A stretch of 64,000 nt of DNA, from contig JACCXN010000004.1 in the NCBI GenBank assembly GCA_013696965.1, forward strand, positions 1 to 64,000, read 5' to 3'. Of the stretch, positions 1 to 1,326 are shown in pieces. The notes below the pieces were generated by a model, which saw only the letters and a program-made list of their open reading frames with translations, was not told the DNA's origin and made no database searches. The position numbers were made by a program, and so were the translations under genes. Source of the DNA: Bacteroidota bacterium (GTDB taxonomy: Bacteria; Bacteroidota; Bacteroidia; JACCXN01). The number at the start of each line of letters is the position of its first letter. Position 1 is the stretch's first letter.

Positions 1-114
1 GACTGGCTCGTTTCATACACTCTTTAAAAGTCTATCATCTCTATAAAAGTTTTGTTACCTTGTCAAAGAACTTATCTTTGTACCCCGAGGTAACGCAGGA
101 CACACAACGCCCTA

Positions 115-243
115 TAACAGCACCTACAAAAAATTGGCGGTTCAGTGGTTAAATGAAGTTTTGTGCTTCGTATCAAGTTTTGTCGTGGCAGACAGTTTAG
201 TGCTTCGAAATCGCCAACTTCTTGTAGCTGCAAAACGTTAGCG
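115..243 (+). repeat. attC-like recombination site, copy 1
   Basis: This is the first of two copies that are identical over 125 bp (115-239 and 787-911). The ends are inverted: the left arm at about 119-141 pairs with the right arm at about 209-231 through an AGC, TACAA and TTGGCG core. The left arm carries unpaired bases, as extrahelical bases do in integron attC sites. It ends in GTTAGCG at 237-243, close to the attC R' consensus GTTRRRY. The interior holds a direct repeat of the form AGTTTnGTGCTTCG at 158-171 and 194-207. The length fits the long attC class, such as the Vibrio repeats. No integrase gene is visible in the window. Confidence 0.7.
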
Positions 244-909
244 GTCATTGTAAAGGACGACAGCGCAGCCTGATAATTTTGTGCGGACAGACAGATTGAA
301 AAAAAAAATTAACTTTGACTTTTACTGACAGTTTTTTACGACTGGTAGACAAAAATAAAAGTGGAGACCAGCAACCACTAAAAAAACGGGGCGACACCGA
401 AAAGCCAAACGAGTAGGACAATTTTAAAACAAAAAAATATGAAAACAATTTTGACAATTTGCTTGTTATTGACCGTTTTCGGTGCAATGAACGCTGTATT
501 AAATGGGACAGTTGGTAAAGACATTATCCAAATGGTAATGGGAGACGAAAGAACAATCGGGACAGATTTTTTGAGAATATTGATTGGACTTTCTGCAATT
601 ACTACTCTTGTTTGGGGACTTAAAAACCTCTATTCAAAAAAAGCATAAAATTAACCTGACAGTTTATCGTGACACTTACTGCAAAGAGAAAGGACGGATT
701 AGTTTAGTTTTGGCGAGAAGGCAAACCGACAACAACACAAACCGTGACAGTAACGGACAATGACGAAAAAAAAAACAACGAACCGCTAACAGCACCTACA
801 AAAAATTGGCGGTTCAGTGGTTAAATGAAGTTTTGTGCTTCGTATCAAGTTTTGTCGTGGCAGACAGTTTAGTGCTTCGAAATCGCCAACTTCTTGTAGC
901 TGCAAAACG
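238..909 (+). mobile_element. Integron-type gene cassette (672 bp), no integrase in view
   Basis: If strand exchange occurs after the G of the GTT triplet in each attC-like site, the excisable unit is 238-909. The 5' bases TTAGCG (238-243) joined to the G at 909 recreate GTTAGCG. This is exactly complementary to CGCTAAC at 784-790, the outer left arm of the downstream site, as expected for a circular cassette whose attC was split on insertion. The cassette carries one short gene (439-648), about 200 bp of leader and 140 bp of trailer. The preceding unit would end before base 115, and no complete third site is seen downstream. Confidence 0.65.
439..648 (+). CDS. Small two-helix membrane protein carried by the cassette
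   Basis: The product is 69 aa with two hydrophobic segments, roughly residues 3-24 and 44-61, joined by a short polar loop containing GDER. The pattern of an N-terminal helix with a G/N turn, then an RILIGLSA-like second helix and a lysine-rich tail, loosely resembles the small DUF378 membrane proteins. The tryptophan of their usual NWG signature is absent, so this is only a suggestion. An A-rich stretch precedes the ATG and there is no clear Shine-Dalgarno site. It is the only sense ORF in the cassette, which is typical of integron cassettes with a single promoterless gene. Its function is unknown. Confidence 0.6.
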   Translation: MKTILTICLLLTVFGAMNAVLNGTVGKDIIQMVMGDERTIGTDFLRILIGLSAITTLVWGLKNLYSKKA

Positions 910-916
910 TTGAGCG
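784..916 (+). repeat. attC-like recombination site, copy 2
   Basis: This copy is identical to copy 1 over 125 bp. The outer left arm is CGCTAAC (784-790) and the right end is GTTGAGC (909-915), an exact match to GTTRRRY. The right-end bases after GTT differ from copy 1, as expected because they belong to the next cassette. The left arm complements the start of the present cassette. The partner left arm of the next cassette (GCTCAAC) was not found downstream, so the array seems to end or decay here. Confidence 0.7.
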
Positions 917-1326
917 TAATGCGTGCATTCAAAAAAATCGGATTTGAAACCGTTATTACTTTCGAAAATTTTTTAGATTTTAGTTGATATTTCTAATATT
1001 CAATTCCTATTGATTAAGTCAAATCCTTGAATGTTTTGAATGACCAGACGGATTTTGGTTTTTGTTATGTTCTTCTTAATGCTTTTGGAATAATTCTATG
1101 TTTATCACAATCTAATTTCTTATGTTTAAAAACCAAAATCCTTGGAATCTTTTGGACGGTTATTCAGGATAGGATAAAAATTGAAATGTATCGAACTTCC
1201 GTGCATTAAATGTATCATAAGGAGTGATTACTTATTTGGAATACAACCAACTCATTGCAGAAAAAACAGGGAGTGAGAAATTAAATATAATTGATAAAAA
1301 TAAGTTTAATGAATTAAAAGACTATT
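917..1326. other. Gene-poor stretch after the cassette array, with a 14-bp inverted repeat
   Basis: No convincing gene is present. A perfect 14-bp inverted repeat, GGATTTTGGTTTTT at 1050-1063 and its complement at 1128-1141, encloses 64 bases. Similar direct repeats (AAATCCTTG...) lie outside it near 1021 and 1136. A 39-codon open frame from a GTG at 1224 to the stop at 1341-1343 overlaps the next small gene and could be the tail of a lost protein. Confidence 0.4.

Follow-up and report, generated by a model that had tools for sequence, protein, structure and literature searches.

The window analysed here, 64,000 nucleotides at the start of contig C4 from a Bacteroidota bacterium assembled into 106 contigs, very probably carries the end part of a chromosomal integron belonging to a Bacteroidota lineage, with the recombinase encoded elsewhere in the genome. 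This reading is built on features visible in the sequence itself: the sites, the cassette boundaries, covariation, the position of attI, gene order and the relationship of the integrase. A wider conclusion also appears likely, namely that a second integron lineage is widespread in Bacteroidota, and that its IntI-like recombinase never had, or has lost, a domain regarded as "essential" and recognizes folded attC by other means. The lineage would be discarded by screens filtering on this domain, and tet(X2) would be among its resistance cassettes.

attC sites and cassettes at the array end

As the initial annotation of the window had noted, two repeats of 125 nt (115-239 and 787-911) are 100% identical over their whole length; their spacing is 672 nt, and the match is far beyond chance. 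The inverted ends it described are also present, as L arms (GCACCTACAAAAAATTGGCG and CGCCAACTTCTTGTAGCTGC) and G^TT ends. As for the GTTRRRY-type 3' ends, site 2 (GTTGAGC) agrees with the pattern, and site 1 (GTTAGCG) does not follow it strictly. At an integron attC, the final G belongs to one cassette and the TT behind it to the next. The R boxes at one site therefore need not match, whereas those of one circular cassette must. The 672-bp cassette recognized between the repeats (cassette B, 238-909) behaves in this way, as its R boxes pair exactly once it is circularized (Table 1). An Rfam search of the window gave no match to an attC family.

Table 1. Features at the start of the window, with coordinates in window positions.
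Feature	Position	Strand	Remarks
Cassette A, 3' part	1..237	+	Truncated at base 1, the start of C4
R'' box of cassette A, CGCCCTATAAC	108..118	+	Equals R'' of the first cassette on C14
attC site 1, AAC to GTT, 124 nt	116..239	+	Crossover G237^T238; covariance model (CM) R1 146.7 bits, E 1.3e-42, site in the R1 training set
R' of cassette B, GTTAGCGGT	237..245	+	Complementary to 782-790, 9 contiguous matches
Cassette B, complete, 672 bp	238..909	+	Repeat spacing and R-box pairing
DUF805 RNA motif (RF03081), cassette B leader	356..423	+	87.2 bits, E 4.6e-16
ORF of 69 aa, DUF378 family	439..648	+	Pfam PF04070 29.1 bits, cutoff 25
R'' box of cassette B, ACCGCTAAC	782..790	+	Exact complement of GTTAGCGGT
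attC site 2, 124 nt	788..911	+	Crossover G909^T910; CM R1 146.7 bits, site in the R1 training set
Cassette C (segment X), truncated	910..1245 (about)	+	Own attC missing here

Copies of the window site at 92-97% identity are found on C14, C88 (two) and C34 of the same genome, and sites resembling it occur in 47 of 99 relatives. C4 starts 115 bp left of attC site 1, and since base 1 is a contig end in an assembly of 106 contigs, a larger array may indeed reach further to the left, as had been suggested. The first 105 bp of the window are 100% identical to the start of another contig, C96 (L148 23-127). This shared stretch precedes two different cassette ends, and is perhaps the end of a mobile element or a common cassette tail.

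A relative of cassette B with 85% identity over 375 bp is present in another genome (G034), where it is flanked by two attC sites. Matches to cassette B occur in 65 of the 295 genomes of the class, mostly via the DUF805 RNA motif, which in the window lies 117 bp 3' of attC site 1. An attC is located 45-225 bp upstream on the same strand in five of the 20 top-ranked DUF805 loci, and the motif was found in none of eight array loci checked. On these counts (5/20 and 0/8), the idea that the RNA is a general cassette leader was rejected.

Segment X is ORF-poor and is found in five places in the source genome (window 910-1245, L018, L131, L136 and L143). Where its start is present, it follows a G^TT. 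On C68, where the contig end removes the start of the segment, the copy runs to the R'' box TACGCTCAAC and an attC after it, and TACGCTCAAC is the complement of GTTGAGCGTA at the start of segment X in the window. In the window the attC of segment X is absent, and this point is thus taken as the end of the array.

R-box pairing and the attC stem

R'' and R' pair at all six variable positions in 142 of 170 cassettes, where about 5 are expected; the 170 are the sum of two sets with an overlap of about 14 (loci L187 and L191 repeat L092 and L093). In the first set, from the source genome and related genomes, 52 of 67 cassettes pair perfectly (mean 2.5 and maximum 9 in 2000 shuffles), and in the second, from named genomes, 90 of 103 do so (2.4 on shuffling, maximum 8). 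Pairing is imperfect in the other 28 of the 170, some perhaps via missed sites.

In a nearly gap-free alignment of 38 sites, the stem consists of 20 pairs plus the AAC/GTT ends, with 91% of cells paired. Fifteen of the 23 pairs are altered on both sides, and there are 152 compensated cells versus 52 after shuffling. When the partner is shifted by one to three columns, the covariation is lost. When the joined sites of 157 cassettes were refolded as DNA, 139 gave a more stable structure with the bottom strand than with the top, and the folded bottom strand would be the substrate of recombination. Compared with shuffled DNA, the folding of a single window site is not significant (z = -1.6 for the bottom strand, 0 for the top). 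Thus, it is covariation and cassette-level pairing, not single-site folding, that make the case for attC, and on these sequence characters the two window repeats are genuine integron attC sites, in agreement with the initial annotation.

The extrahelical bases that had been read into the repeats are not seen as bulges. Four or five pairs into the stem, 33 of the 38 sites have one unpaired position, and a G.T pair is conserved in 36 of 38. These mismatches may be the counterpart of the extrahelical bases in canonical attC. Site length is 124 nt and near-constant in the commonest families. Hybrid attC sites, in which the left half and the right half derive from different site families, were also observed (L099:3753-3876, L081:1502-1625 and L082:1502-1625).

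Recombinases and attI-like sites in the source genome

None of the tyrosine recombinase (PF00589) matches of the genome is on C4, in line with the lack of an integrase noted for the window. About 40 attC sites are spread over roughly 25 contigs of the source genome, and several contigs end exactly at an attC. Thus, the array appears to have been fragmented by assembly, with loss of linkage. On C14 (minus strand), a recombinase of 375 aa is followed by an attI-like G^TT 89 bp past its stop, a cassette with a 364-aa ORF, an attC, a glyoxalase-family cassette, a further attC and segment X. A second, related recombinase of 646 aa is encoded on C44, with an attI-like site at 138 bp and, downstream of the gene, an attC at the contig end. 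A search for intI elsewhere in the genome, as the initial annotation had proposed, therefore ends in the recombinases on C14 and C44, and an integrase is not missing. Recombinases on C51, C25, C89 and C91, and the Xer-like ones on C57 and C93, were set aside, as none is linked to sites.

In the assembly, C4 is not physically joined to C14 or C44. A cluster of attC sites with no integrase of its own (CALIN), either decayed or mobilized in trans, would account for a contig without recombinase, and for a truncated last cassette without attC, as expected where an array decays. However, the same genome has two recombinases that match, each accompanied by an attI-like site and a downstream attC, so that action in trans need not be invoked, and contigs that stop exactly at attC repeats indicate that linkage has simply been lost. 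The integrase-free reading is thus rather unlikely, and a chromosomal integron is preferred, with the array in the window probably belonging to the recombinase of C14 or C44. In such an integron, the tyrosine recombinase from C14 and/or C44, the gene of which points to an attI-like site some 100 bp past its stop, would act on these attC sites. Mobile cassettes, each ending in an attC, would be inserted at the attI-like site successively and in one direction. Recombination at G^TT would free a cassette as a circle, in which R'' and R' then pair, and the freed cassette could insert at attI or at another attC.

Relationship of the integrases to IntI

The distance from KDR to HxLRHS is 68-69 residues in all 32 Bacteroidota relatives, versus 110 in canonical IntI, and the IntI-specific additional domain (I2 helix / patch III) is absent from all 32. 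Most of the integrases carry an N-terminal extension of about 95 residues that is weakly DUF5710-like. Scores are 195.9 bits with NCBIfam TIGR02249, below its cutoff of 265, and 217.8 bits with the NCBIfam archaeal XerA model (cutoff 220). In a quick tree, with poorly filled columns dropped, the Bacteroidota integrases adjoin IntI and are separate from Xer. SH-aLRT support is 94 for the join with IntI and 99 for IntI. Of the 32 Bacteroidota rows, 31 group together with a support of 90 and all of them with 71, and the placement of the C44 protein is not firm. From the alignment and tree, the Bacteroidota integrases are a sister lineage of IntI, with moderate support. A fold search with the predicted integrase gives about equal matches to XerA and IntI (2a3v), and adds little, the model having a pTM of 0.47.

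The XerA score just short of the cutoff, together with nested inverted repeats in the attI-like region, would suit an Xer/dif-type module system, in which cassettes are exchanged as double-stranded DNA at dif-like sites. A dif site is double-stranded and about 28 bp long. The cassette sites here are unlike it, being about 124 nt in length with a covarying stem of 20 pairs and a strand bias in folding, and the tree splits the integrases from Xer and sets them beside IntI, which makes such a system very improbable.

One point against an integron is that these integrases lack a domain that IntI is reported to need for its activity (Messier and Roy 2001, as cited in PMC9668308 and PMC9176274). This additional domain serves to define integron integrases or to screen for them, and a published screen picks integrases by it (PMC9176274). 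Because the Bacteroidota integrases lack the domain selected for, a screen of this kind would miss them. An 'integron-like' subgroup of simple tyrosine recombinases has been described, with integron function tied to the insertion (PMC8138268); in contrast, the Bacteroidota proteins without the insertion sit at complete attI-attC arrays. A standing question becomes testable, namely whether folded sites can recombine only with the additional domain of IntI or whether this domain is one solution of two.

Distribution in Bacteroidota

Covariance model R2, which like R1 was trained on sites from genomes searched here, finds attC matches (E <= 1e-4) in 206 of the 295 genomes of the class, versus a canonical IntI above the curated cutoff in one of the 295 (locus L161, G141:C40). 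If the reading is correct, integrons are a common feature of one major phylum and no rarity. The statement in the initial annotation that attC sites are rarely described in Bacteroidota holds for the literature found, but not for the genomes. No earlier description of this integron lineage was found in the open-access literature, with bioRxiv outside the scope of the search. On six proteobacterial plasmids with canonical integron integrases, about 1.9 Mb in all, R2 had no match; the model is thus specific, yet blind to canonical attC. The window site had no match in a phage collection.

The best 80 integrase relatives in a contig search are all from Bacteroidota records, many of them Flavobacterium species, and integrase-attI-array units are found in named Flavobacterium genomes. 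Around the 80 named integrases, all 186 sites share the strand of the integrase, and among the best 150 of these, 147 are downstream of the integrase and three upstream. No downstream site is among the best 150 at 36 of the 80 named loci, and 20 of the 80 have less than 800 bp after the gene. Of the 44 named loci with a downstream site, 27 have an attI-like G^TT that matches the first detected attC within 200 bp past the integrase stop (26 at 89-104 bp, one at 67 bp), and the corresponding distance is 89-101 bp in seven of the loci examined first. The attI-like G^TT is preceded by inverted repeats, for example CGAAACAAACCTTCG...CGAAGGTTTGTTTCG and then TATATACAAG^TT. Near-identical copies across many genomes and short inverted repeats could also come from a REP/MITE-like hairpin repeat that a transposase has dispersed, and not from an integron. 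Such a repeat would hardly lie without exception on the strand of the integrase and mostly downstream of it, nor have boundary bases that change together with the far end of the neighbouring gene unit (142/170 cassettes), and this reading can be practically dismissed.

The cassette bodies are diverse, with two similar pairs among 164 compared, one of which has 97% identity over 1314 bp between two different families of the class. Thus, the same site does not recur around unvaried genes, a pattern that the initial annotation had held to speak against attC. ORFs lie in the direction of the array in 140 of 163 cases. Pfam assignments for the cargo (90 proteins) include methylases, TPR proteins, MerT, a beta-lactamase, an AbiEii-type AAA domain and short-chain dehydrogenases. 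Group II introns are found inside a Chryseobacterium plasmid array (L151 22695-29498).

Comparison with known integrons

The Bacteroidota system resembles chromosomal (sedentary) integrons in its G^TT crossover, R''/R' pairing in the circular cassette, a covarying stem that favours the bottom strand, attI beside the integrase and an array of diverse cassettes. It differs from them in its integrase, which lacks the IntI-specific domain and in most cases carries additional N-terminal sequence, in near-constant 124-nt sites in the commonest families, and in an attI with nested inverted repeats about 100 bp past the integrase stop. The chromosomal integrons of Treponema have the same-direction layout in common with it, a likeness of layout (PMC3607928). 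With IntegronFinder 2.0, Salinibacter ruber M1 was the only complete integron reported in Bacteroidetes (PMC9024848). It also belongs to the Bacteroidetes/Chlorobi group, and the lineage described here is unreported in that study.

Resistance cassettes on plasmids

Plasmid p63039 of Myroides odoratimimus carries a site 75.8% identical to that of the window, as part of an array. An attC closely follows each of its OXA, MYO-1 and GNAT genes, and that of tet(X2) lies 20 bp past the stop, with R boxes on either side that match at 10 contiguous positions. Judged by the R boxes, the complete cassettes on this plasmid are those of tet(X2) and GNAT alone, MYO-1 being off at one position and OXA having no match. 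The tet(X2) attC is present at 98-100% identity on 13 plasmids, p63039 included, from Myroides, Bacteroides, Riemerella, Empedobacter, Sphingobacterium and Proteus, and had no match in E. coli genomes. The lineage would thus provide a recombination-site context for resistance genes of Flavobacteriia and Bacteroides, such as tet(X2) on p63039. In locus L183 (NZ_CP013691.1 41000-61000), pairs of an IS91-family transposase and a tyrosine recombinase repeatedly flank the resistance cassettes.
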